Positions 44,003 through 64,000 of a DNA stretch of 64,000 nt are shown piece by piece. The stretch covers positions 124,001-188,000 of IMG/VR virus record IMGVR_UViG_3300032288_004964; one strand, given 5' to 3'. The notes under the pieces were generated by a model that saw only the letters and a program-made list of their open reading frames with translations, was not told the origin of the DNA and ran no database searches. Positions within the stretch are counted from its first letter, which is position 1, and the number at the start of each line of letters is the position of its first letter. The position numbers and the translations under genes were made by a program. This stretch comes from a virus.

Positions 44003-44111
44003 CTTAAATGATTTTTTATTTTATATATAAATAAGAAGAATAGTTTGCTATTTTTAATACAAACAGAAGTGTGAAATAAATATATATAGATAATAAAATT
44101 AATTTAATTAG

Positions 44112-46871
44112 ATGGCAAGTACACCACTTTATAAGAAACTTAAAGATAATGGCACAACCTTTTATTGTTTTCCAGGTGCTGCAGAAGATATATCAGCAGC
44201 TTATCAGAATCAAAATTATAAAATGTATTTTTCTAAATATGCTTTATTGAATTTTCCAAAACAAAATTTACAAAACATAGGTGGTACACAAGCTACTCCA
44301 ATTTATTGGGATTTTGATGTATTTAAAAAATCATCAAATGCTTCAATTTCAACAGACTACTCTGAGCAATTAGTTGAGTCATTAAGAAACTATGTGGCTA
44401 ACCAAGAGGTGGTTGTAAAAGAATCTAGATTGAATAATAGTCAGTACTATTATGATAATAATGAACCATATACTACCACCGAGAAAATATTTTGGAAGTG
44501 GTGTAAGAAATTAAATGTTATTCAGTTTGAACCTGCTTCTCCAAGTGATGAATACTTTTCAAATTTAGATGAGTTTTCAAGTGCTGATCCAAATGATGAT
44601 ACTTACTTTCCAGAGTATATTTGGAAAGAAAGAGAGATTGTAGATTGGCCTGTTTATACATTTTATGAAAGTTCAAATCAACCTGGGTATTTAGAAGCCG
44701 AATTTTATGCAACAACAAATTTTAGAGTAGGTGATATTGTTAAATTTACTGGTATAAGTTCTTTAACTAATACGGAAATACCTGGTATAGAATCAGATAC
44801 TTTACAAACAACTGTTACTGAATTAATAGCTGCTGGTGCTACACAAGGTCAAAAAGTTATCTTTGATATACCAACAAATGGCTTAGTTTCTGGAACTTAT
44901 TTTGAAAATGGTGATGGCTCTATTGGCTTAGTTTATAACAGATTAGTTCAGTATATTGGTGAGGTAAATGGTATTAATAATGTTCAAGAGGCTAACAGAT
45001 CATATACAGAAGTTTATGCTTTAGTTCCAGATCATACTGGTCAAACTCCTGATATTTTATTTAGATTACATAGTGATAATAATTATAAACCCAATTTAAC
45101 GTTCCCAATTATACCTAGTCAATATCAGCCTGAGATTATAGGAGCTGAATTATTCACATCTCCGATTGTTAACACTCCTCAAAATTACCCTGGTTCATAT
45201 TTTGGTCAGTTTGATACTGAAGATTACACATATGAAGTTTCTAATGGTGACTCTATTAGAAGAAGTGGAGATTATTATGGTGTTAGTGGTGATATAAATA
45301 ATCCTGTTATTGATGGATCAACAATAGATGGTGCTATTTTAGACTTTAATACTACACATTATGTTAAAATGAATATTAATAGTGGAACTATTCAAACATT
45401 TGACCAGTTCAATGCTATGGAGGTTAATAATTTACCACCTAATGATTTTGAATTTAATGCTATTCTATGGTATTATACTATTGAAGATATTAATGGAAAT
45501 ATTTCAACCAATTTATATGGTATATCATTTTTAGATAATCCAATGAATAATCCTGTTACAGAGGAAATTGGCATAAAACTACCAATTTATAAAAAGTTAG
45601 TTTCTAATGGAGTCCATGATGGTACTTCTTATGCTTTTAGTTTAAATTTAAGTTTTAATATAATTAATGAGAATCCACAAGATTCCTATAATCCACAATC
45701 AATTAATACTTTATTTGGTATGGATTTATTTAATACAGCTATGACTAGGTTGGCTTCAATTAATGATACATTCTTAACAATGGTTGCTGAAAATATTGAT
45801 ATTAAGACAGAGATAGATAATATCAGACAATTACTTTATACACAAACTGAACTTGATACAATAAACGCCAAGATTAAAAATCTTGAAAATTTACTAATAC
45901 TTTACAAGACAAATCAATTACAAACTTCGGATACAATTAAAGTTGTTCAACAAGAAACTCCAAGTTTTACAGTTCTAACTTTAGAAAACATTGATACTGG
46001 ATATAAAACAATTACATCAGTTAAAACTACTGACTTATATACAACAACTGGAGTAATTCCTATTAATGTATCAGTTCCTGAGAATAAGGATTTTTTTGTT
46101 AAAATAATTAACAATGATGAGGTTAATTTAACTCTACCCAATGAGGATAGATTAGTTGTTGTTTTAGATAAAGATTTGTCTTATAGACAATCGTGTCAGT
46201 TTGTAATTGATTCAACATCCACATCAACACAAAATAAAAAGCTTGATATTTATATTAAATATGTCTATAATCCTAACTCCAATATTTCAGCAGGTGAAAC
46301 AATTTATATAACTAACACTAATGTATTACCGGTTGAGACACCATTGATAACAAATATTGATTTACCGGTTGCTTTTAATAGTGTTACTCAACAAGCTAAC
46401 TTCTCATATGTAAGTGATAAGTTCAACTTTAATGTTGATTTAAATAATCCTATTATATTAAATGCTGGTAGTATTCTACAAGTTCCTCTTGATACAAATT
46501 ATGTGTTATTAAATAATACATTAAAGTCTGGAGATACACTTATGATGAATGACTTCTTAGTTGGTACTACTTCCGTGTTTAATTTCTCTGGTCAGTATGA
46601 TATTTCAAGTGTTGGTACTACAAGTTCCTATATTTATTTAGATATATCTAGTAATAATGAACTGGTTGCTTATGGAGCAAGTGCTACGCCAAAATATATT
46701 CATGATCCTAACGGATTTATGACACTTGGTACTTATTCAACAGAATTGTCAAATATTCCCTACTTTAGTTTAAATAAAGGATATAGATTTACAATTACTA
46801 GAATATCAGATTCAGATATTTCTTCAATAACTGATAGATATTTAATTCAAACTGAACATCTTTTAAAATAA
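44112..46871 (+). CDS. Large structural (baseplate-type) protein
   Basis: 919 residues. The N-terminal ~180 residues (MASTPLYKKLKDNGTTFYCF, 'KYALLNFPKQNL', 'EKIFWKWCKKLNVIQFEPAS') recall a family of large-phage baseplate proteins, but I cannot name it. The middle has repeated beta segments including a small barrel-like stretch ('RVGDIVKFTGISSL'). A coiled coil (~575-600: 'NIDIKTEIDNIRQLLYTQTE') precedes a beta-rich C-terminus. Position between fibre-type genes supports a tail role. Confidence 0.65.
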   Translation: MASTPLYKKLKDNGTTFYCFPGAAEDISAAYQNQNYKMYFSKYALLNFPKQNLQNIGGTQATPIYWDFDVFKKSSNASISTDYSEQLVESLRNYVANQEVVVKESRLNNSQYYYDNNEPYTTTEKIFWKWCKKLNVIQFEPASPSDEYFSNLDEFSSADPNDDTYFPEYIWKEREIVDWPVYTFYESSNQPGYLEAEFYATTNFRVGDIVKFTGISSLTNTEIPGIESDTLQTTVTELIAAGATQGQKVIFDIPTNGLVSGTYFENGDGSIGLVYNRLVQYIGEVNGINNVQEANRSYTEVYALVPDHTGQTPDILFRLHSDNNYKPNLTFPIIPSQYQPEIIGAELFTSPIVNTPQNYPGSYFGQFDTEDYTYEVSNGDSIRRSGDYYGVSGDINNPVIDGSTIDGAILDFNTTHYVKMNINSGTIQTFDQFNAMEVNNLPPNDFEFNAILWYYTIEDINGNISTNLYGISFLDNPMNNPVTEEIGIKLPIYKKLVSNGVHDGTSYAFSLNLSFNIINENPQDSYNPQSINTLFGMDLFNTAMTRLASINDTFLTMVAENIDIKTEIDNIRQLLYTQTELDTINAKIKNLENLLILYKTNQLQTSDTIKVVQQETPSFTVLTLENIDTGYKTITSVKTTDLYTTTGVIPINVSVPENKDFFVKIINNDEVNLTLPNEDRLVVVLDKDLSYRQSCQFVIDSTSTSTQNKKLDIYIKYVYNPNSNISAGETIYITNTNVLPVETPLITNIDLPVAFNSVTQQANFSYVSDKFNFNVDLNNPIILNAGSILQVPLDTNYVLLNNTLKSGDTLMMNDFLVGTTSVFNFSGQYDISSVGTTSSYIYLDISSNNELVAYGASATPKYIHDPNGFMTLGTYSTELSNIPYFSLNKGYRFTITRISDSDISSITDRYLIQTEHLLK

Positions 46872-53313: not shown

Positions 53314-54195
53314 ATGTATTCAATATTTCACATAGAAGGAGGAATTGGTAAGAATATTTTAGCAACCGCAGTTATTGATTCCCTCAAGAAAACAGACCCA
53401 GAAAGAAAAATCATTTTAGTTTCAGCTTGGCCTCAAGTTTGGTTTAACAACCCAAACATTGAACAAATATTCCCAATGGGTCAAGTCGCTAACTTTTATA
53501 AAAACTTTATCAAAGACCAAGATGTAAAAATATTCCGTGTTGATCCTTATCATACAGAAGATTATATCCTAAATAAAAAACATTTAATTGAAATTTGGTG
53601 TGATTTAGTTGGAGCTAAATATGATGGAGAACTACCTAAACTTTACTTTTCACCTTTAGAGTTGGAAGGAATTAGATCAAAAATTTTACAAGGAGTAAGT
53701 AAACCTATTTTTTTACTACACACAAATGGTGGTGGTTCTGGTCCTAAATCAAGACCTTATTCTTGGTATAGAGACATACCAATGCAAAATGCTGTAGATA
53801 TTGTTAACTACTTCAAAAATGATTATCATATCTATCAACTTGGATATCAAGGACAATCTTTAATACCAGGTTGTAATAAATTAACTTTAGAAACTAGAGA
53901 AATTTTAGCAGCTCCTCTTTTTTCTAAAAAGAGATTATTAATTGATTCTTTTTCTCAACATGCTTCAGTTGCACTTGGTATGCAATCAGTTGTTTGTTGG
54001 GTTGGAAATAAACCTGAGGTTTTAGGTTATGATAGTCATCTTAATATAAAACCTGTTGCTAAACCCGTATTTGACACTTACCACTCATCTTACTTAGATG
54101 ATTTTGATATTGGAGGTAATCCAGTTCAATTCCCTTATGATAAATTGAAAGTATTTGATTCAAACGAAATAATAAATAAATTATTAACATTATGA
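53314..54195 (+). CDS. GT9-like glycosyltransferase (heptosyltransferase-type)
   Basis: 293 residues. The N-terminal 'FHIEGGIGKNILATAVIDSL' is the GT-B nucleotide-side loop of GT9-like enzymes. The C-terminal domain shows 'PIFLLHTNGGGSG', 'YHIYQLGYQG' and 'LLIDSFSQHASVALGMQSVV' followed by CWVGNKPEVLGY, the usual D/S...H donor site. It would add a sugar to a glycan or protein. Its stop overlaps the sulfotransferase start (ATGA), so the two are coupled and may act on the same target. Confidence 0.75.
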   Translation: MYSIFHIEGGIGKNILATAVIDSLKKTDPERKIILVSAWPQVWFNNPNIEQIFPMGQVANFYKNFIKDQDVKIFRVDPYHTEDYILNKKHLIEIWCDLVGAKYDGELPKLYFSPLELEGIRSKILQGVSKPIFLLHTNGGGSGPKSRPYSWYRDIPMQNAVDIVNYFKNDYHIYQLGYQGQSLIPGCNKLTLETREILAAPLFSKKRLLIDSFSQHASVALGMQSVVCWVGNKPEVLGYDSHLNIKPVAKPVFDTYHSSYLDDFDIGGNPVQFPYDKLKVFDSNEIINKLLTL

Positions 54196-54998
54196 GAAAA
54201 ATTCATTATATAGGTGGTCTACCGAGAAGTGGGTCAACTTTATTAACAAACATTCTTTTACAGAATCCAAAATTTGCTACAACAGCAACATCTTCTCTTT
54301 TAGACTTTCTCTTACAAGTAAGAGATAATTGGAATAAATTAGAAGGACATAAAGTTTATGAAGAAGGCCAGGATAAATGGGCAGTTATCAGAGCAATTAT
54401 GTATAACTATCACAAAACTGATAAAGAAGTTATCTTCGATAAAAACAGAGGTTGGTCTACACATATTGAATTTATGGAAAAAGCAACTGGTGAAGGAGTT
54501 AAAATAATTGCTTGTGTTAGAAATCTTGAAGATATCTGTTCTTCTTTTGAAAAACTATTTAGAAAGAATAGAGCTGATGGTGAAATACACGGTGAATTTT
54601 CTAATCCTAAAATGAAAAATAGAGAAGGTAGAGTTGGTGTTTGGACATCAGATGAAGGAGTTATAGGAAGACCTTATATTTCTTTATTAGATACAATCCA
54701 AAGAGGTTTAGGTGATAGAATATTATTCTTCCCATATGAAGAATGGTCATCTAATCCTGACTTCTGGTTTAAGAAATTATATGAGTTTGTAGGTGAAGAA
54801 TATTACCAACATGATTTTAATAATATCGAACAAGTTATTAGAGAAAATGATGCTGGTTATGGTTGGGGATCTGATTTGCATGAAATTAAAAATGGTAGAT
54901 TATTACCAGCTAAATCAGATGCTATTGAAATATTAGGTAGAGATTGGTTTGTTAAATTACATGACACAGAATTCTGGAAGACTAAGAAAAAGAAATAA
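54192..54998 (+). CDS. PAPS-dependent sulfotransferase
   Basis: 268 residues. The 5'-phosphosulfate-binding loop is 'GLPRSGSTLLTNIL' (residues 9-22) and the 3'-phosphate motif is 'CVRNLEDICSSFEKLFRK'. The C-terminal 'FFPYEEWSSNPDFWFKKLYE' is the usual conserved helix region. It would transfer sulfate from PAPS to a sugar or tyrosine. It is coupled to a GT9-like gene and faces an APS kinase gene that would make its donor. Acceptor unknown: a virion fibre glycan or the host surface. Confidence 0.85.
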   Translation: MRKIHYIGGLPRSGSTLLTNILLQNPKFATTATSSLLDFLLQVRDNWNKLEGHKVYEEGQDKWAVIRAIMYNYHKTDKEVIFDKNRGWSTHIEFMEKATGEGVKIIACVRNLEDICSSFEKLFRKNRADGEIHGEFSNPKMKNREGRVGVWTSDEGVIGRPYISLLDTIQRGLGDRILFFPYEEWSSNPDFWFKKLYEFVGEEYYQHDFNNIEQVIRENDAGYGWGSDLHEIKNGRLLPAKSDAIEILGRDWFVKLHDTEFWKTKKKK

Positions 54999-55000
54999 TA

Positions 55001-55030
55001 AAAAAACCTCTCAAATTTGAGAGGTTTTTT
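55001..55030. terminator. Bidirectional intrinsic terminator
   Basis: Perfect palindrome AAAAAACCTCTCAAA / TTTGAGAGGTTTTTT between the convergent sulfotransferase and DUF2061 genes. Confidence 0.92.
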
Positions 55031-55237
55031 TTATTCATCCATTTTAATAAATTTATACCAAAATCTTTCATGTATAAAGTAGATAATAGGTTTTAAGACT
55101 AACTCACTAACACCTAATAAAGAAGCAATTTTAAGAGGTGCCCCTAACAATGTAGCTGTTATAACTGTTGTTAAAGTTCCTAAAATTCTATATGTTATAG
55201 TTTTATAAAGGTGTCTCTTTATAGCTTTATCCTTCAT
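55031..55237 (-). CDS. DUF2061-type small membrane protein
   Basis: 68 residues. 'RHLYKTITYRILGTLTTVIT' is the DUF2061 signature (K-x-x-x-Y-R), followed by a second hydrophobic segment and 'KPIIYFIHERFWYKF'. Function unknown. From memory, DUF2061 genes often sit next to cysC or cysD/N in Bacteroidota, which is what is seen here. It overlaps the end of the nucleotidyltransferase gene by 11 bases. Confidence 0.78.
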   Translation of the reverse strand: MKDKAIKRHLYKTITYRILGTLTTVITATLLGAPLKIASLLGVSELVLKPIIYFIHERFWYKFIKMDE

Positions 55238-55685
55238 TTACCATTAGATTTTTTATTACATCTTCTTGTATAGACTCGTGAACCATTGTTCTCCAAGAAT
55301 CATCACCATTCTTAATAGAATCTCTGATTTTTGTAGCTGAGATAAATGCGATGTCACCTGGAGGTGTAAACTCATTTATTTCATAACCAACACCTCTTCC
55401 ATAATTAACAGATTCAATATCAGGGATAATCATTACTTTAACATCATCATTTTTAGCAGCATGATACTTCTCAATCATTTCTACTGTTTGTTCAGTTGTA
55501 AAAGGATTCTTTTCATCTGGTTCGATGTCTCTAACCATAATTAAAGCTGGTATACCTGCATCTAATTTTTGTTGAATTAATTCAATATGTCCATAATGAT
55601 AAGGTTGGTATCTACCTACAAAGATAGCATACTTTTTATCTGGATTCTTAGTGGGTTCTCCACCGTGATTTACTTTTGACCACAT
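55227..55685 (-). CDS. Small HxGH-type adenylyltransferase
   Basis: 152 residues. 'FVGRYQPYHYGHIELIQQ' has the H-x-G-H nucleotide-binding motif and 'FISATKIRDSI' the I-S-x-T-x-x-R motif of the NMNAT/PPAT-type superfamily. 'RDIEPDEKNPFTTEQTVEMI' and 'NYGRGVGYEINE' lie between. ATP sulfurylase shares this fold, so an APS-forming role next to APS kinase is possible, though the protein is less than half the size of known sulfurylases. NMN or another substrate remains possible. Confidence 0.72.
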   Translation of the reverse strand: MWSKVNHGGEPTKNPDKKYAIFVGRYQPYHYGHIELIQQKLDAGIPALIMVRDIEPDEKNPFTTEQTVEMIEKYHAAKNDDVKVMIIPDIESVNYGRGVGYEINEFTPPGDIAFISATKIRDSIKNGDDSWRTMVHESIQEDVIKNLMVNEG

Positions 55686-55686
55686 A

Positions 55687-56268
55687 TTATTTGTTATTTT
55701 TTAATATTAACTCAGTAAGAAAGTTTACATTTTTTTCTAAATCTTCTTCTGTGTTATTTTTTAGTACTGTTGCATTTTGAGGAGTTTCAAAAGGAGATGA
55801 GATTCCTGTAAATTCTTTAATTTCACCAGCTCTTGCTTTTTTGTAAAGACCTTTAGGGTCTCTAGTTTCACAAGTAGAAAGTTCAGCATCAATGAAAATT
55901 TCCATAAATCCTTCACCAATAATTTCTTTAGCTTGGTTTCTATTCTTTTCAAATGGAGAGATAAAAGAACAGATTACAATTAGACCAGCATCATTCATAA
56001 GTTTACAAACTTCTGAAACCCTTCTAATGTTTTCTACTCTTGCTTCTTCTGAGAATCCTAAATCTTTGTTAAGACCCATTCTAGTGTTATCACCATCTAA
56101 AATATAGGTGTGATATCCCAAACTGATTAGTTTTTCTTCAACTAAATTAGCAATAGTTGATTTTCCTGAACCGGATAATCCAGACATCCAAATGGTACAA
56201 GCCTTTTGATTTTTGATAGATTCACGGTTTTCTTTTGTTGTTTTAAAATTGTGCGTAGTTATATTCAT
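55687..56268 (-). CDS. cysC: Adenylylsulfate (APS) kinase
   Basis: 193 residues, the usual CysC length. Walker A is 'GLSGSGKST' (residues 30-38). 'LDGDNTRMGLNKDLGFSEEA' and 'ENIRRVSEVCKLMNDAGLIV' are the APS-binding signature. 'RDPKGLYKKARAGEIKEFTG' and 'SPFETP' complete the lid. It phosphorylates APS to PAPS, the donor for sulfotransferases and an intermediate of sulfate reduction. First gene of a tight minus-strand operon with the adenylyltransferase and DUF2061. Confidence 0.95.
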   Translation of the reverse strand: MNITTHNFKTTKENRESIKNQKACTIWMSGLSGSGKSTIANLVEEKLISLGYHTYILDGDNTRMGLNKDLGFSEEARVENIRRVSEVCKLMNDAGLIVICSFISPFEKNRNQAKEIIGEGFMEIFIDAELSTCETRDPKGLYKKARAGEIKEFTGISSPFETPQNATVLKNNTEEDLEKNVNFLTELILKNNK

Positions 56269-56371: not shown

Positions 56372-59300
56372 ATGCCAACACAAAGTTTAGTACTTAGAGG
56401 TTTAATCGGAAGAAGACTAACCATCGAAGAAATGGATGGAAACTTCACATATTTAGAGTCATTAGCTCAAGAACAAGGAGATCAACCAAATCATCAAATT
56501 GCAATAGGAACAGGCACTGGTCTGACTTCATCTGAAAATTTTACATTTGATTATGAGTGTAATAATTTAATATCAGGTAATAATACCATTTGTTCTTGTT
56601 CATCAGAATCTAGTATCATTGGTGGTAATAACAATTGTGTTACTTGTTCTTATGAATCTAGTATCATTGGTGGTCATAACAATTGTGTTGTTTGTTCAGG
56701 TGGATCAACAATCATTGGTGGTTTTAATAACACGGTTACCTACTGTGCTGATTATTCTTCAATTGTTGGTGGTAGAAATAATACTATAAATGGTAGTTGT
56801 TATTATAATACTTATTACTCTTCTATAGTTGGTGGTGAGTATAATACTATTGGTTTAGGATCTTGTGATGCTAGTATAATAGGTGGTTCAGATAATTCTG
56901 TTGATTATTCTTGTAAAGCTGGTATCTTTTCTGGTGTTAGTAGTCATATATGTGATTATTCAGAAAGATCTACTATCTTAGGAGGTTCTCAAGATAGAAT
57001 ATCAAATGAATCTTGTAGATCTACTATTGTTGGTGGTTTTAGAAACTGTATTGTTGATGGTTCTTGTAATTCATCTGTTATGTCTGGATGTTGTAATGAT
57101 ATCTGTTATGGATCAGACAACTCTGTGATATCTGGTGGTTATTGTAATGAGATATGTTGTTACTCTTGTGAGTCTTCTATTATTGGTGGTATTCGTAATA
57201 CAATTAATTGTCAAACTTGTCAATCTACTATTGTTGGTGGGTATTGTAATAGAATTTCAAGCAATGAAGGTTCTGTGGTTTTGGGTGGTCGTTATAATGA
57301 TGTTTGTTGTAGTTCAAACTACACTGTAATATCAGGTTCTAATAATAAAATTTGTTGTGAATCTTGTAATTCATCTATTCTTGGTGGTAATTTTAATATA
57401 GTAGACGGATATTCTTGTAATTCATCTATTATCGGTGGTCAATCTAACTGCATTTGTGGTTCTAATTATGTATCTGGTCCTTATTCTTGTAAGTGTGATT
57501 ATGGTTCTTGTAATTCAGTTATTCTTGGTGGATGTTGTAATCAAATAATTTGTGATTCAGACAACACATCAATTATTGGTGGATGTTGTAATCAAGTTGT
57601 TGGTGATGGTGGTTCTGGAAGAAACTCTATTGTAGGTGGTGCTGATAACACAATTTGTTATTCAGATCACTCGGCAATTATTGGAGGTGAACAAAACAAA
57701 ATTTATGGAGAATCAGATTATTCTGTTATTATTGGTGGATGTTATGGTTTTATTTATGAAACACAATACTCTGCTATAATTGGTGGATGTTGTAATACAA
57801 TATGTATAGGTGGTAATAATGGCAATGGATATGGTGTTATTTTAGGTGGTGGTTCCAATACTTTAAATTGCTATTCTAATAATTCTGGAATTCTAGGTGG
57901 ATATTGTAATACTATAGATTGTTACTCAACTAAATCATCAATTATTGGAGGTGAATCAAATTTAATTATTACAAGTGGTCTTACTGCTAGTGATAATTAT
58001 GGTGTTTATAATGTTTGTCTTGGTGGTAACTCAATTATTGGTGGTCTTACAAATAGTATCATTGATTCTGAAAACTCAGTTATCTTAGGTGGTACTGGTT
58101 TAACATTAGCTACTCAAAGTAACACTGTTTTAGTTCCTCACTTAAAAATTAATAATTTAGATGTTTGTAACTCAGATGATAGAATATTAGTATCTGATGC
58201 TTTTGGTAATATTAATTATAGAGAAGCTTCTACATTAGGTGGAGGTGGTTCATTCTATTCTTGTTGTAATACATTGGATAATACTTCGGTTTCAAATATT
58301 ATAGGCGGTTGTTATAACACAATATGTAATTCTTTTGAGAGTACTATAATCGGTGGTGAAAATAACTATTTATGTGAAGTTGGATTAGGATCTACTATTG
58401 TAGGTGGTATTTGTAATACAATTAATAATGGCGTAGATGCTTCTGGTATTTTTGCTGGTAGATGTAATAAAATTTGTGGAAATAGTGATGGAAATTATTA
58501 TTCAGCTATTATTGGTGGTTATTGTAACTTAATATCAGATGGTAATGAAAGTTCTGTAATCTTAGGTGGTTGTCGTAACTGTATATGTGATTATTCTTAC
58601 AATTCTATGATATCATCTGGGTGTTGTAATTATATATGTGAGTCTGATAGAACATCTATTATAGCGGGGCGTTGTAATACAATTTGTTGTTCTTCAGAGG
58701 ATTCTGTAATTATGGGTGGTTGTTATAATAGAATTGATAGAAACTCTGATAGATCATCTATTGTTGGTGGTGGTTGGAACTCAATTTGTACATATTCTTC
58801 TAGATCAGGTATTCTTGCTGGTTCTGGTAATCATATTTATGATGGATCTTGTCATTCTACAATTGTAGGTGGTCATTGTAACCATATTTATAATTATTCT
58901 TGTCATTCTACAATTGTAGGTGGTGAATGTAACACATTATATAATGACGCTATTAACTCTACAATCAATGGTGGATTTAGAAACTGCTTAGATAGTGTTT
59001 ATAACTCATCAATCTTAGGTGGATATAGAAACTGTGCTCACTATACAATCAACTCAACAATTGTTGGTGGATGTAGAAATATGATATATTATGGTTCTAA
59101 TGAAGGTGCTATATTAGGTGGTGGTTGTAATTCTATTTCTGGTAGTTCTTATCAAGCATCAATTGTTGGTGGTAGATGTAATGAAATAAACAATCATTCT
59201 CATGACTCTTCAATAATTGGGGGTTATAATAACTCAATTTATAGTTGTTCGGAAAAATCTACAATTGTTGGTGGTTTTGATAACTGTATTTGTTGTTCAA

Positions 59301-61402
59301 ATAACTCTGGTATAATTGGTGGTTATAATAATGAGATTTTTGAATCAAGTAGATCTTTAATCTTAGGTGGTTCAAATATGACTCTTAATAATGAAGATGA
59401 TACAGTTTTAGTAAATCGTCTTAAAATTGATACTCTTCAAAATGAACCAGGTGATACTAGAATTGTTACTGCTGATTCTGATGGTAGAATTAGATACAGA
59501 ACAGTTTCTGGTTTAGTTCCAGAATTTGGAGGTATTGTAAATGGCGCTACTAATTCAATGACTGGATTTATGAATAGTATTTATAACTCTAATAATGGTT
59601 CAGTTGTTGGTGGTTCTTATAATGGTGTAACATCTTCAAATTCATCTTCAATAATTGGAGGTGATGCTGGTGTAATTAGTTGTTCACCTGAATCAAGTAT
59701 TATTGGAGGTCAATGTAACACTATATGTTGTTACTCTTGTGACTCATCAATTATAGGTGGTTGTAACAACCACCTAAATTGTAGTTCTAGTTTATCATCT
59801 ATAATTGGTGGTGGTTGTAACACTATAAATTGTTTTTCTATTAGCTCAGCAGTAATTGGTGGTTATCGTAACTTTACATGTAATTACGCAATTGAATCAT
59901 CTGTAATTGGTGGTAGATGTAATAGTGTTTATAACACCTCTTGTAAATCATCTGTAATTGGTGGTTACTATAACTGTATTTATAATGGATCTTGTGAATC
60001 ATCTATTATTGGAGGTCGTGATAACTGTATTTATAACGGAGCTTGTGATTCATCTATCATCGGTGGTGAATGGAACAGAGTTGCTTGGGGTACTTATAAC
60101 TCAACAGTTATTGGCGGTGATTGGAATAGAGTATTCGATTCTTGTGGGGCATCAGTAGTTGGTGGAGCTGGTAATAGAGTAAATGAAACTTATAGATCTG
60201 GTATTTTTGAAGGACATTGTAATCATATTTGTTGTTATTCTGATGATTCTACTATTGTAGGTGGTCACTATAACTGTATTGAGTATTATTCTTGCCAATC
60301 TTCTATAATTGGTGGATGTTGTAATGAAATCTGTTGTACTAATTACGCTTCTATTGTAGGTGGTGCTTGTAACCATATCTGTCAGCGTTCTTATTATTCA
60401 TCTATACTTGGTGGATGTTATAACTGCGTTGTTGATTATTCTTGTTATTCATCTATCTTAGGTGGTGGAAGAAACTGTATTTATAACTCTGATTATACAT
60501 CTATAATTGGTGGTAGATACACTTGTTTAGATAACTCTGATTACTCATCTGTAATTGGTGGATGTTGTAATGGTATGTATAATTCAAGCTACTCATCTGT
60601 AATTGGTGGATGTTGTAATAGACAAACATATTCCGATTTAGCATCTATTGTTGGTGGATATTGTAACTGTATCTGGTCAGGTGATTGCTCAAGTATCATT
60701 GGTGGTTATGGTAATCGATTATGTGGTGGTTATTACGGTGATGACTCAAGAGGATCTTCAATTTTCGGTGGTAATTATAACTGTATGTATAATGGTGTTT
60801 GTAGATCTTCAATTATTGGCGGTTATAGTAATGAAATAAAATGTTACTCTTGTGATTCATCAATAATTGGTGGTTGTAATAATGGAATTTGTTGTGCTTC
60901 TTGTCAATCTTCTATTATTGGTGGTTGTAACAATTATATGTGCTGTTCTTGTAACTCAGTTATATTAGGTGGACAAGATTTAGATGTTTGTAATATAGAC
61001 AATACAGTATTCATGAATGGTACAACTTGGTTAAAACAAACAGTTGAGACATCATTTGAAACTACTGTAAGTGCTGCCACTTTTAGTGTTAACTTTTTAG
61101 AGGGTGGTATTAAATACTTATCATCATTAAGTAATGACTTCCAAGTTGACTTTACAAACTTTCCTGATCCTACTATTGCCAACTCTGTTATAACTTATAC
61201 ATTAATCTTAAATCAAGGTGTTACTCCTTATATGATTACTGGATTAACTATAAATGGTGGTGGTACTCAAACAATTAAGTGGAATGGTGGAAATGTTCCT
61301 ACCGGTAACGCTAATCAAGTTGATACAATAGGTTTAATGTTTGTTTATAATAGTACAGGTTTATTAAGTCAAGTATTGGGTCAAGTTGGAACATTTGCAT
61401 AA
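56372..61402 (+). CDS. Giant cysteine-rich tail fibre with GG-N repeats
   Basis: 1676 residues. The N-terminus 'GRRLTIEEMDGNFTYLESLA' is a common phage-fibre attachment motif. Then come dozens of ~15-20-residue units of the form S-S-I-I-G-G-x-x-N-x-I, like YadA-type head repeats, in three blocks (~75-580, 620-1010, 1060-1530). The first two blocks end in a connector ('NTVLVPHLKINNLDV'; 'DTVLVNRLKIDTLQ'), the third in 'NTVFMNGTTWLKQT'. I count about 138 cysteines, often as GGCCN or ICC. The last ~105 residues match the end of the collagen-like fibre at 48077. Probably trimeric. Confidence 0.82.
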   Translation: MPTQSLVLRGLIGRRLTIEEMDGNFTYLESLAQEQGDQPNHQIAIGTGTGLTSSENFTFDYECNNLISGNNTICSCSSESSIIGGNNNCVTCSYESSIIGGHNNCVVCSGGSTIIGGFNNTVTYCADYSSIVGGRNNTINGSCYYNTYYSSIVGGEYNTIGLGSCDASIIGGSDNSVDYSCKAGIFSGVSSHICDYSERSTILGGSQDRISNESCRSTIVGGFRNCIVDGSCNSSVMSGCCNDICYGSDNSVISGGYCNEICCYSCESSIIGGIRNTINCQTCQSTIVGGYCNRISSNEGSVVLGGRYNDVCCSSNYTVISGSNNKICCESCNSSILGGNFNIVDGYSCNSSIIGGQSNCICGSNYVSGPYSCKCDYGSCNSVILGGCCNQIICDSDNTSIIGGCCNQVVGDGGSGRNSIVGGADNTICYSDHSAIIGGEQNKIYGESDYSVIIGGCYGFIYETQYSAIIGGCCNTICIGGNNGNGYGVILGGGSNTLNCYSNNSGILGGYCNTIDCYSTKSSIIGGESNLIITSGLTASDNYGVYNVCLGGNSIIGGLTNSIIDSENSVILGGTGLTLATQSNTVLVPHLKINNLDVCNSDDRILVSDAFGNINYREASTLGGGGSFYSCCNTLDNTSVSNIIGGCYNTICNSFESTIIGGENNYLCEVGLGSTIVGGICNTINNGVDASGIFAGRCNKICGNSDGNYYSAIIGGYCNLISDGNESSVILGGCRNCICDYSYNSMISSGCCNYICESDRTSIIAGRCNTICCSSEDSVIMGGCYNRIDRNSDRSSIVGGGWNSICTYSSRSGILAGSGNHIYDGSCHSTIVGGHCNHIYNYSCHSTIVGGECNTLYNDAINSTINGGFRNCLDSVYNSSILGGYRNCAHYTINSTIVGGCRNMIYYGSNEGAILGGGCNSISGSSYQASIVGGRCNEINNHSHDSSIIGGYNNSIYSCSEKSTIVGGFDNCICCSNNSGIIGGYNNEIFESSRSLILGGSNMTLNNEDDTVLVNRLKIDTLQNEPGDTRIVTADSDGRIRYRTVSGLVPEFGGIVNGATNSMTGFMNSIYNSNNGSVVGGSYNGVTSSNSSSIIGGDAGVISCSPESSIIGGQCNTICCYSCDSSIIGGCNNHLNCSSSLSSIIGGGCNTINCFSISSAVIGGYRNFTCNYAIESSVIGGRCNSVYNTSCKSSVIGGYYNCIYNGSCESSIIGGRDNCIYNGACDSSIIGGEWNRVAWGTYNSTVIGGDWNRVFDSCGASVVGGAGNRVNETYRSGIFEGHCNHICCYSDDSTIVGGHYNCIEYYSCQSSIIGGCCNEICCTNYASIVGGACNHICQRSYYSSILGGCYNCVVDYSCYSSILGGGRNCIYNSDYTSIIGGRYTCLDNSDYSSVIGGCCNGMYNSSYSSVIGGCCNRQTYSDLASIVGGYCNCIWSGDCSSIIGGYGNRLCGGYYGDDSRGSSIFGGNYNCMYNGVCRSSIIGGYSNEIKCYSCDSSIIGGCNNGICCASCQSSIIGGCNNYMCCSCNSVILGGQDLDVCNIDNTVFMNGTTWLKQTVETSFETTVSAATFSVNFLEGGIKYLSSLSNDFQVDFTNFPDPTIANSVITYTLILNQGVTPYMITGLTINGGGTQTIKWNGGNVPTGNANQVDTIGLMFVYNSTGLLSQVLGQVGTFA
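56597..60962 (+). repeat. Coding repeat array (I-I-G-G-x-x-N-x-I units)
   Basis: DNA built from units around ATT-ATT-GGT-GGT followed by TGT-AAT; the unit length varies by a few codons. Two non-repetitive connectors at ~58110-58260 and ~59380-59550 divide it into three blocks. Confidence 0.85.
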
Positions 61403-61419: not shown

Positions 61420-64000
61420 ATGTTAAGTAAACTATCAACGCATTTAGGACCAGGTTCTCTCTTTTCAGGAGATGAACCACTAGTATTGGAATTTAGTAAT
61501 TCAACTTGGATAAGTACAAATGTTGGTACTTATTCATTAGTTGATGCTTGGAATGAATTTTTTGTAACCATAGAAACACCATTCAAAGATGTAAGTATTG
61601 ATGGTAATAAAATTTCACTAATTGGTGGTAAAGATTTAGAATTAAAAACTAGTTGTTTTAGTAGTAGTGACTTAGTTTCAATTAAAGATAATTCTAGAAT
61701 AATTACAACATTAGGTACTTATTCATTTGATGATTGTTCATTATTAACAGATGCTACCTTAAAAGGAGTTACTTATTCGTATGGTGGATCTTTTAGAGAT
61801 AATGTGAGTTTAACAACTATAATTCTTCCTAATTTACAAGAGATTTTAGGTGATGGTTATTTCTTTTATAATTGTGGATCTGTTAGTAACTTCAATTTAC
61901 CTTTACTTAATAGTATATCAGGTGTTTCTAACTTTTATAATTGTAATAGTATGTCAACTTTAAATTTACCTGTTTGTACTACTTTAGGTGATACAGTACT
62001 TAATAATGATAACTTTGATTCTATTACTGGTAAAACAATAGATTTGACAGTAACTCCTGAATTACTTACTTGTAATGGTGGTACTCCAGATGTTGATATA
62101 CAATATCTACAATCTAATAACACAGTAACTATTCATATACCAACTTCAATTACTTCATTTACTCCAACATCAGCTACTTTCTCAGGTACAACTGTTAGTG
62201 TTGTGGGTAAAGGATTCTACGCCATTGATTCAGTAAAAATAGGTGGAGTTGAAGTTGCGACTTATTCACTTGATAGTTTTACTAATTTAAGTTTAGTTAC
62301 AGGTACTGTTTCAGATGGTTCTGTTTCAATTACTGGTACTTATGGTTCAGCTTCCAAATCTGGATTTGAATGGGATGCTACCGTTAAGTTTAGTTATATT
62401 GCCACTCCTTTAAATGTTTTACCAAATACTTGGACTGATTTATCGTCTTACTATAAAGATTTAGAAATTAAATCAGGCGTATCACTTGATACACTATATT
62501 CAGTTTTATTTGATGGTAGTAATTCAGGATATGGAACTTCAAGTCAAATGACTGTAAAATACACAAATGGATTTACAATAGAAACTTGGGTTAATTTCTC
62601 ATCATTAACATCTGCTAATTATATAATGCAGTTTGTTGATCAAGATTATACAAATACTAATCCAGATTTAACTCTACTTACTATTGATAATGATTTAAGA
62701 ATTCAATCAAGTAATTCTGTTAGTTTTTCTACTAATATAACTGCTAATAAATTCATCAAGGCTGTTGTTACATATGATTCATCAAATGGTGAAACTAAAA
62801 CATATATAAATGGTCAATTAACAAATACTAGTACACTTAATTTATCCACAAGCTATAAGAAAACAATTGGTAAACTTTTTGTTGGTAATATAGGATCTAA
62901 TCAACCTATGAGAATAGGCATGTTAAACTTTGTAAATTATATACAAGATTCAACAACTATTCTTAATAATTATAACAATGAAAGAAACACTTATGATGAA
63001 GCTAAAGGAAGTTTCTTATTTAATTCATCAAGTAGTCAATACTTATCATCTAGCTCACCTGATTATGTAATTGGTACAAATAGCTTTACTTTAGAAGCAT
63101 TTGTTAAAACAACATCTCAAAGCGGTTATGATGGTGTGATTTCAATGTTAGATAACAATGCTCCATTTAATGGTGTTTCTATTAATATTTTTGATGGTAA
63201 TTTTGACTTCTATTCTAAAGGTGGTCAATATACTTCATATACTGCTTCTAATGATACATGGTACCATGTTGCTATAGCAAGAGATAATGGAACTATAAGT
63301 TATTTTGCTAATGGTAGATTGGTAGCTCAATACTCTGATTCTTATAATTATACTCTTCAAGATTTAGTTATAGGTAGATATTATACAGATCTTAATGACC
63401 ACTATATAGATGGTGTTATTGCACAACCTAGATTAACAATAGGCACTGCATTATATAATGGTACATTTAGTGTAACTCCTCCATTAACAAGCGGTTCTAA
63501 TACTAAATTATTATTATTAGATGCTTATAATAACCAATTATTAGATTCTTCTGGACTTACACACTCTGTTATCTCTAATAATAATGTTGGTTGGACAAGT
63601 AGTTTACCTTCAACTATAGGAAGTACTTATGTACAAGATGCTCTTCAGTTTTATGTAGATGCTTCATTAAATACATCTTATCCTGGTTCAGGTACAATTT
63701 GGTATGATATATCAGGAAACTCAAGAGATCTTTCTTGGGGTTATGGATTAACTTATGATTCTGCAAATGGTGGTAATATTCATTTTGATGGTACTAATAG
63801 AGCACTAAGTGGTTCTAACTATACAATTAACTTCTCTAATGGAATTACGGTTGAGGCGGTTGCTAAATATCATTCAGGTTTTTATGGTGGTGTATTTGCA
63901 TTCAATGGTGGTGGTGACTATATTAATGTTCAATTTATGTCTTCTGGTACACAACTTAGATTTGAGCTTGATGCGGGTCAATCCTTATACACAACTGGAG
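61420..64000 (+). CDS. Adhesin-like fibre protein with LRR, TIG-like and LamG domains (3' partial)
   Basis: The frame opens at the ATG at 61420 (MLSKLSTHLGPGSLFSGDEP) and runs without a stop past base 64000 (860 codons seen). Residues ~110-195 hold BspA-type leucine-rich repeats ('SLTTIILPNLQEIL', 'FNLPLLNSIS', 'LNLPVCTTLG'). Residues ~245-325 look like an IPT/TIG beta-sandwich ('ITSFTPTSATFSGTTVSVVG'). Then at least three LamG/ConA-type domains follow ('NGFTIETWVNFSSL', 'NSFTLEAFVKTTSQ', 'NGITVEAVAKYHSG'). These modules suit surface binding. The N-terminus resembles that of 50367. Confidence 0.82.
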   Translation, partial: MLSKLSTHLGPGSLFSGDEPLVLEFSNSTWISTNVGTYSLVDAWNEFFVTIETPFKDVSIDGNKISLIGGKDLELKTSCFSSSDLVSIKDNSRIITTLGTYSFDDCSLLTDATLKGVTYSYGGSFRDNVSLTTIILPNLQEILGDGYFFYNCGSVSNFNLPLLNSISGVSNFYNCNSMSTLNLPVCTTLGDTVLNNDNFDSITGKTIDLTVTPELLTCNGGTPDVDIQYLQSNNTVTIHIPTSITSFTPTSATFSGTTVSVVGKGFYAIDSVKIGGVEVATYSLDSFTNLSLVTGTVSDGSVSITGTYGSASKSGFEWDATVKFSYIATPLNVLPNTWTDLSSYYKDLEIKSGVSLDTLYSVLFDGSNSGYGTSSQMTVKYTNGFTIETWVNFSSLTSANYIMQFVDQDYTNTNPDLTLLTIDNDLRIQSSNSVSFSTNITANKFIKAVVTYDSSNGETKTYINGQLTNTSTLNLSTSYKKTIGKLFVGNIGSNQPMRIGMLNFVNYIQDSTTILNNYNNERNTYDEAKGSFLFNSSSSQYLSSSSPDYVIGTNSFTLEAFVKTTSQSGYDGVISMLDNNAPFNGVSINIFDGNFDFYSKGGQYTSYTASNDTWYHVAIARDNGTISYFANGRLVAQYSDSYNYTLQDLVIGRYYTDLNDHYIDGVIAQPRLTIGTALYNGTFSVTPPLTSGSNTKLLLLDAYNNQLLDSSGLTHSVISNNNVGWTSSLPSTIGSTYVQDALQFYVDASLNTSYPGSGTIWYDISGNSRDLSWGYGLTYDSANGGNIHFDGTNRALSGSNYTINFSNGITVEAVAKYHSGFYGGVFAFNGGGDYINVQFMSSGTQLRFELDAGQSLYTTG

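Follow-up and report, generated by a model that had tools for sequence, protein, structure and literature searches.

A cysteine-rich GG-N repeat fibre of a large phage as the extreme of a phage-wide trait

We studied a 64,000-nucleotide stretch of viral DNA (hereafter the window), which corresponds to bases 124001-188000 of the 385-kb IMG/VR record IMGVR_UViG_3300032288_004964. Among its genes (Table 1) is an uninterrupted ORF with an ATG start, encoding a GG-N repeat protein of 1676 aa. A previous sequence-only reading had counted about 138 cysteines in this protein by hand, and the exact number was indeed 138 (8.23%), with 19 CC; TGT coded for 131 of them. The highest Cys content among 17 other window proteins sampled was 2.3%, and the large structural proteins flanking the fibre contained 0-0.5% Cys, in agreement with the contrast drawn earlier with nearly Cys-free structural proteins. 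A wrong frame or chance ORF was ruled out by purifying selection at the protein level.

Table 1. Features of the Cys-rich fibre and its neighbourhood (positions in the window).
Feature	Position	Strand	Basis
Conserved sulfotransferase neighbour, GT9-like	53314..54195	+	by eye only, no Pfam match
Sulfotransferase, PRSGSTLL motif	54192..54998	+	PF13469 1.1e-12, PF00685 5e-10
Nucleotidyltransferase-like protein (CTP_transf_like)	55227..55685	-	PF01467 5.4e-8
APS kinase (adenylylsulfate kinase), divergent neighbour of fibre	55687..56268	-	PF01583 2.2e-65, TIGR00455 8e-72
Cys-rich GG-N repeat fibre, 1676 aa, 138 Cys	56372..61402	+	ORF and count
N-terminal region, aa 1-60, putative virion-attachment part	56372..56551	+	boundary inferred
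GG-N repeat block 1, aa 80-585	56609..58126	+	unit parse, boundaries approximate
Inter-block module NTVLVPHLKI...ILVSDAFGNINYR, nearly Cys-free	58127..58291	+	sequence
GG-N repeat block 2, aa 641-1000	58292..59371	+	unit parse
Second inter-block module, aa 1001-1052, resembles first module	59372..59527	+	sequence
GG-N repeat block 3, aa 1053-1545	59528..61006	+	unit parse and models
C-terminal cap, aa 1546-1676	61007..61399	+	tblastn
LamG/concanavalin-like fibre or adhesin, downstream, extends past window end (L014:7421-10291)	61420..64000	+	PF13385 1.9e-23

Collagen-like and LamG fibre genes were found on both sides of the Cys-rich fibre gene. The N-terminal motif LTIEEMDGNFTYLES is common to the fibre and a collagen-like phage protein in L009, and the C-terminal cap, which carries no Cys excess, has homologs at the C-termini of two fibres that are otherwise different, one from Synechococcus phage S-BM3 (tblastn 2e-9) and one from Actinomycetia phage DSL-LC01 (9e-7). 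From this gene context and from the end modules common to phage fibres we strongly infer that the Cys-rich protein is a virion tail fibre. No Pfam family was matched by it. A trimeric autotransporter adhesin (type Vc) was rejected, as no YadA-type C-terminal membrane anchor was found and the C-terminus is a phage fibre cap. In tblastn and blastn searches against isolated phages only the cap gave matches, the GG-N repeats being unmatched, possibly because of BLAST low-complexity masking, and the 634-kb marine megaphage LR745206 had no detectable relative of the fibre. Within the 38-63 kb region, DNA similarity to an INPHARED record was confined to positions 44063-44580, inside a 919-aa ORF (44112-46871), where the identity to LR745206 was 75% over about 520 bases.

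To describe the repeat, 301 units from the fibre and four relatives were parsed into columns. The unit reads S S I I G G x7 x8 N x10 I x12 x13 x14 S x16 x17 and is mostly 17, at times 16, residues long. Its core is highly conserved (G6 in 298/301 units, I/V at column 3 in 298/301, N9 in 272/301, and I/V/L at column 11). Across the 301 units Cys was absent (0%) from nine structural columns (S1, S2, I3, I4, G5, G6, N9, I11 and the S near the end), whereas it occupied 26% of column 7, 33% of column 8, 16% of column 10, 38% of column 12, 19% of column 13 and 28% of the second-last residue; the two remaining variable columns (L3, R1) contained 2-3%. The recurring GGCCN, ICC and YSC positions pointed out from the sequence are real and fall at columns 7, 8, 12 and 13 and at the second-last residue of the unit. 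When not occupied by Cys, the Cys columns contain Y, N, D, R, S, H, E or K, which makes a surface location likely, and Tyr is common in the variable columns. In AlphaFold models the strands are formed by columns 2-4 and 10-12, with turns elsewhere; columns 10 and 12 should face outward, since both flank the inward hydrophobic residue 11. Judging from residue composition and these models, the Cys columns are very probably solvent-exposed on the shaft surface, and Cys, being limited to variable columns, would not be scattered through a buried core.

The fibre units contain the near-invariant Gly, the spaced Ser/Asn and the inward hydrophobics of the YadA/UspA1-head motif. In a mapping that we made from PMC9543794, the conserved Gly, the x-x-N/S spacing and the next hydrophobic residue of the GG-N unit align with G@8, S@11 and A@13 of the 14-residue YadA motif. 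The heads of UspA1 (3PR7), YadA and BpaC, which are kin to the GG-N unit, are trimeric left-handed parallel beta-rolls of trimeric autotransporter adhesins. The Cys-rich fibre differs from them in its 16-17-residue units (14-15 residues in the heads), in its 8% Cys at surface columns, and in being a presumed phage virion protein in which no membrane anchor was found. The YadA-like kinship proposed earlier was supported via a paralog with the GG-N unit, which matched UspA1 3PR7 at 7.6e-22 over about 160 aa; the Cys-rich fibre itself and its profile gave no match in a PDB sequence search. A single-chain AlphaFold model of aa 1092-1342 (251 aa) was a confident solenoid (pLDDT 92.7, pTM 0.86), although AlphaFold can yield confident solenoids for repeat sequences. 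When this model was compared with the PDB by Foldseek, right-handed beta-helices were retrieved at TM <=0.40, and UspA1 and YadA were outside the PDB top 50 for both a 637-aa and the 251-aa model, whose matches were all of low TM, a single chain of an intertwined trimer being a poor test. A beta-roll homotrimer is the likely fold of the Cys-rich fibre.

Scanning viral contigs with sequence patterns revealed relatives of the fibre on four of them (464, 262, 174 and 178 kb long). The three complete relatives contained 171/1818 (9.4%), 126/1608 (7.8%) and 101/1628 (6.2%) Cys and the partial one 46/503 (9.1%). On the 464-kb relative there is also another Cys-enriched GG-N fibre, which is shorter and has 30 Cys in 594 aa (L058:2754-4538, minus strand). 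At the variable columns the Cys share was 26-29% in every pairwise comparison, and the retention of individual cysteines ranged from 65% in the nearest relative down to 38%. After correction for its high frequency, Cys in the nearest pair was retained somewhat better than the majority of variable-surface residues, and in distant pairs to about the same extent. As far as these comparisons indicate, Cys composition is conserved more than Cys position. Against the nearest relative (72% identical), dN/dS was 0.15 at the core columns and 0.60 at the variable columns.

The previous reading had regarded the fibre as without a described counterpart of such design. Phage GG-N ORFs were collected from IMG/VR in two scans with Cys-free DNA patterns. 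In 169 phage loci the repeat regions contained 2.78% Cys in comparison to 0.79% in the remainder of the same ORFs. The Cys columns matched those of the fibre, with 9-13% at columns 7 and 8 and 0% at G5, G6 and N9; the search expression itself constrained the latter three in part, whereas I3, S1 and column 11, for which the exclusion of Cys was less strict, still contained only 0-0.6% Cys. Cys content formed a continuum from 0 to about 10%, with the family of the Cys-rich fibre at the top. The repeats of other phage GG-N fibres (118 survey ORFs; e.g., L226, L225, L079 and L215) reached 9.0% Cys. These fibres have the GG-N unit and the Cys-bearing columns in common with the Cys-rich fibre, but their units are mostly of 15 residues and their Cys content is lower (median 3.4%), a minority having none; L085, L154, L161 and others are almost Cys-free. 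The design is not unique to this fibre: going by the survey sequences, it is the upper end of a continuum across many phage GG-N fibres, the extreme of a phage-wide trait and not a one-off. It belongs to a known kind, the GG-N/UspA1-like fibres, while the Cys trait itself may lack an earlier description, as no Cys-rich phage fibre was found described in the open-access literature.

As a control, one of the survey patterns was run on 396 genomes of the phylum of a Bacteroidota MAG. Pooled Cys was 3.62% in 83 phage ORFs and 0.19% in 17 Bacteroidota ORFs (Mann-Whitney P=7e-9), and within the GC range 0.33-0.50 the difference persisted (55 phage versus 12 Bacteroidota ORFs, P=3e-6), although both P values suggest more independent events than there are, because the phage loci are not independent lineages. 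More than 1% Cys was found in 72/83 phage ORFs and in 0/17 from Bacteroidota. Type-V-secreted proteins are generally low in Cys (review, PMC8151025). The simplest account of the difference is that export via the oxidising periplasm selects against Cys, while phage repeats are made in the cytoplasm and released by lysis. Cytoplasmic assembly explains why Cys is permitted, whereas its excess over base composition and over the remainder of the ORF calls for a further cause.

That permission might nevertheless be all there is: with selection against Cys lifted, AT-rich and T-rich codons could drift to TGT and the cysteines would have no function. The confinement of Cys to variable columns, the predominance of TGT among its codons and the absence of the trait where export would select against Cys are in line with such drift. 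However, Cys at the variable columns amounted to 27.9%, whereas the base composition of the other (non-Cys) codons at these positions predicts 4.0%, and TGT exceeded TAT at these columns (112 versus 50) in spite of a genome GC content of 29%. Moreover, two GG-N paralogs in the same genome, and thus under an equal mutational regime, stay at about 2% Cys (2.3% in L012:6184-10938, plus strand; 2.0% in L013:6960-11849, minus strand), the variable columns L3 and R1 remain almost free of Cys, and Cys density is kept in all relatives. Mutational bias alone was rejected on the evidence of base composition and of the paralogs, and we consider permissive drift improbable. The paralog cysteines lie mainly at columns also used by the Cys-rich fibre. 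The L012 and L013 fibres are of 1584 and 1629 aa, with units mostly of 18 residues, and the L013 fibre additionally has collagen-like GTSGTSG repeats. A target of a diversity-generating retroelement was also rejected, as no reverse transcriptase was found when the viral record was searched with PF00078. Taken together, we are highly confident of the anatomy described here and of selection on Cys density.

The previous reading also proposed a ladder of disulfides or bound metal along the shaft. Same-column cysteines in successive units of the Cys-rich fibre numbered 45, in comparison to 28.6 in shuffles (z 4.1), but such stacking was weak in the relatives (z 1.2, 2.0 and 1.2). Asn showed a stacking excess comparable to that of Cys, and adjoining units are alike overall, so repeat duplication can explain part of the stacking. 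In a survey of 95 proteins column 8 alone stood out (85 versus 64, z 3.5). Within the unit, Cys at columns 7 and 8 co-occurs, while columns 8 and 10 avoid each other. We then compared Cys spacings in the four complete fibres with those expected when residues are shuffled within columns. CxC was depleted in all four (7 versus 15.7, 9 versus 14.4, 8 versus 12.1 and 3 versus 5.9), CxxC did not exceed expectation (12 versus 13.8, 8 versus 11.2, 5 versus 10.4 and 3 versus 4.6), and CC was observed 19, 26, 20 and 8 times versus 14.4, 17.1, 15.0 and 8.5 expected. No consistent signal of joint retention or loss of adjacent cysteines was detected between the relatives. Programmed disulfide pairs were rejected, since no pair emerged consistently from the joint-retention, co-occurrence and spacing tests; the pair signals 12-R3 and 13-R3 were an artefact of short units, in which two labels denote one residue. 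The spacing and retention tests imply that close pairs fit for intrachain disulfides or chelation are avoided, with no fixed pairing in evidence, and a ladder by design is not upheld. What is selected appears to be thiol density at the surface rather than fixed pairs. Disulfide-bearing beta-solenoids, e.g., Cys-rich ice-binding proteins, are secreted and have programmed Cys pairs. The Cys-rich fibre resembles them in carrying Cys in a repeat solenoid but differs in that no pairing rule was found.

Regarding metal, HxH iron sites are established for T4 gp37 and have been proposed for marine phages (PMC11705849), and the T4 gp37 and alterophage R22Y fibres are like the Cys-rich fibre in the idea of shaft side chains with extra chemistry (PMC11705849). 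By analogy with these iron-loaded fibres, clusters of surface thiols might bind soft metals (Zn, Cu, Fe), whether to stabilise the shaft or to imitate ligands loaded with metal; the high density of surface thiols would suit this, and cysteines across adjoining chains could build sites invisible in the sequence. Unlike gp37 and R22Y, however, the Cys-rich fibre is essentially devoid of HxH (1, 0, 0 and 0 in the four complete fibres), Cys-His proximity is inconsistent, and neither the Cys spacings nor the retention of adjacent cysteines point to metal sites. Motifs of the HxH and CxxC type being not enriched in the four complete fibres, they were rejected, and we regard a metal-binding shaft in general as quite unlikely.

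The faster evolution of the Cys columns, the turnover of positions under a constant composition and the lack of pairing rules would also fit an adhesive surface. The thiols could then mediate attachment by thiol-disulfide exchange or by soft-metal bridges with the host surface or particles, and Cys would be one member of a varied binding alphabet (Y, N, D, R, S, H, C). This is unlikely in our view, though somewhat less so than metal binding, as Cys lies along the whole shaft and not at the tip, and the expected receptor-binding end, the C-terminal cap, is not enriched.

Another explanation is offered by the genes at 53314-56268 (GT-like, PRSGSTLL sulfotransferase, nucleotidyltransferase-like and APS kinase), a cassette conserved in four large phages. 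The APS kinase gene adjoins the fibre gene in 4/4 complete loci, with the sulfotransferase and the GT-like gene nearby in 4/4. No PAPS reductase was found in the genome, which makes PAPS more probable as a sulfate donor than as an intermediate on the way to cysteine; the conserved cassette suggests PAPS-dependent sulfation by the phage. PRSGSTLL-type sulfotransferases were present in 10/88 GG-N loci versus 2/90 survey loci without a GG-N fibre (P=0.017), and in all 10 the fibre contained >1% Cys. Related sulfotransferases of 265-272 aa with this motif were seen beside GG-N fibres in L071, L100, L104, L120, L128, L195, L205, L215, L219, L235, L240, L247, L276 and L284, and Synechococcus phages S-SKS1, S-SRM01 and S-SCSM1 carry distant homologs (26-32% identity) with a sulfotransferase annotation. 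The 462-kb phage LR756500 also has an APS kinase, with no GG-N fibre <=12 kb from it. The fibre could accordingly be a substrate of these enzymes, sulfated on Tyr, which is frequent in the variable columns, or on glycans attached to Ser/Thr/Asn, with Cys either incidental or itself a modified residue. This would leave the raised Cys unexplained; 64/74 Cys-enriched GG-N survey loci had no sulfotransferase within the fetched flank, and against the PDB the sulfotransferase matched protein-tyrosine sulfotransferases at E 0.05 only. We give the substrate explanation a slight chance, and the cassette possibly forms a modification system of its own, directed at the virion or at host glycans.

The explanation that we place ahead of adhesive thiols, metal, drift and a modification substrate is oxidation after lysis. 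The shaft, probably a homotrimer with about 400 thiols, would be coated by thiols at its surface columns, given that the variable columns are the presumed solvent surface. Assembly would take place in the reducing cytoplasm, where the scarcity of close same-face pairs (CxC, CxxC) would help the thiols to stay free. In the oxidising surroundings after lysis, thiols on stacked coils and adjoining chains would oxidise statistically, in a non-programmed manner, and so cross-link and stiffen the shaft, with selection acting on thiol density and not on fixed pairs. The coil-to-coil distance in a beta-roll is about 4.8 Angstrom (PMC9543794), and for 82/117 unit cysteines the adjoining unit, i.e., one coil away, carries Cys at the same column, which makes statistical oxidation between coils or chains possible. 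We also count in favour of oxidation the density of Cys and its confinement to columns, its excess over base composition, its maintenance in relatives, the phage-versus-Bacteroidota gap together with the low Cys of T5SS proteins (PMC8151025), the stacking in the fibre itself, the depletion of CxC and the enrichment of CC. A phage thioredoxin (WCGPC; L060:1486-1812) was found, as were thioredoxins in 4/4 relatives, and these lend weak support. By eye, an SmpB-like gene lies slightly downstream of the L060 thioredoxin and a tRNA gene upstream. Against oxidation we count the missing joint retention of cysteines, the weak stacking in the relatives, the fact that no sulfhydryl oxidase of the Evr1/Alr family was found in the genome, and a fold not settled by single-chain models, which do not retrieve UspA1 or YadA. 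Statistical cross-linking is thus our preferred function for the thiols, but as the least certain step of the argument it is held tentatively.

Surface Cys at 10-38% of specific columns, with exposure as presumed above, is very unusual in a protein working outside the cell. The contrast between phage and bacterium within one repeat family represents a natural experiment on what intracellular assembly and lysis permit. It is conceivable, though somewhat doubtful, that phages, unlike bacteria with this repeat, have repeatedly turned GG-N shafts into redox-switched, thiol-coated rods, selected for density, which are inert while reduced and become oxidation-cured or sticky on release. Should the released fibre cross-link or bind through its thiols, this would be a simple route to harden or functionalise nanofibres, and a new contact point between phages and environmental redox and metal chemistry.
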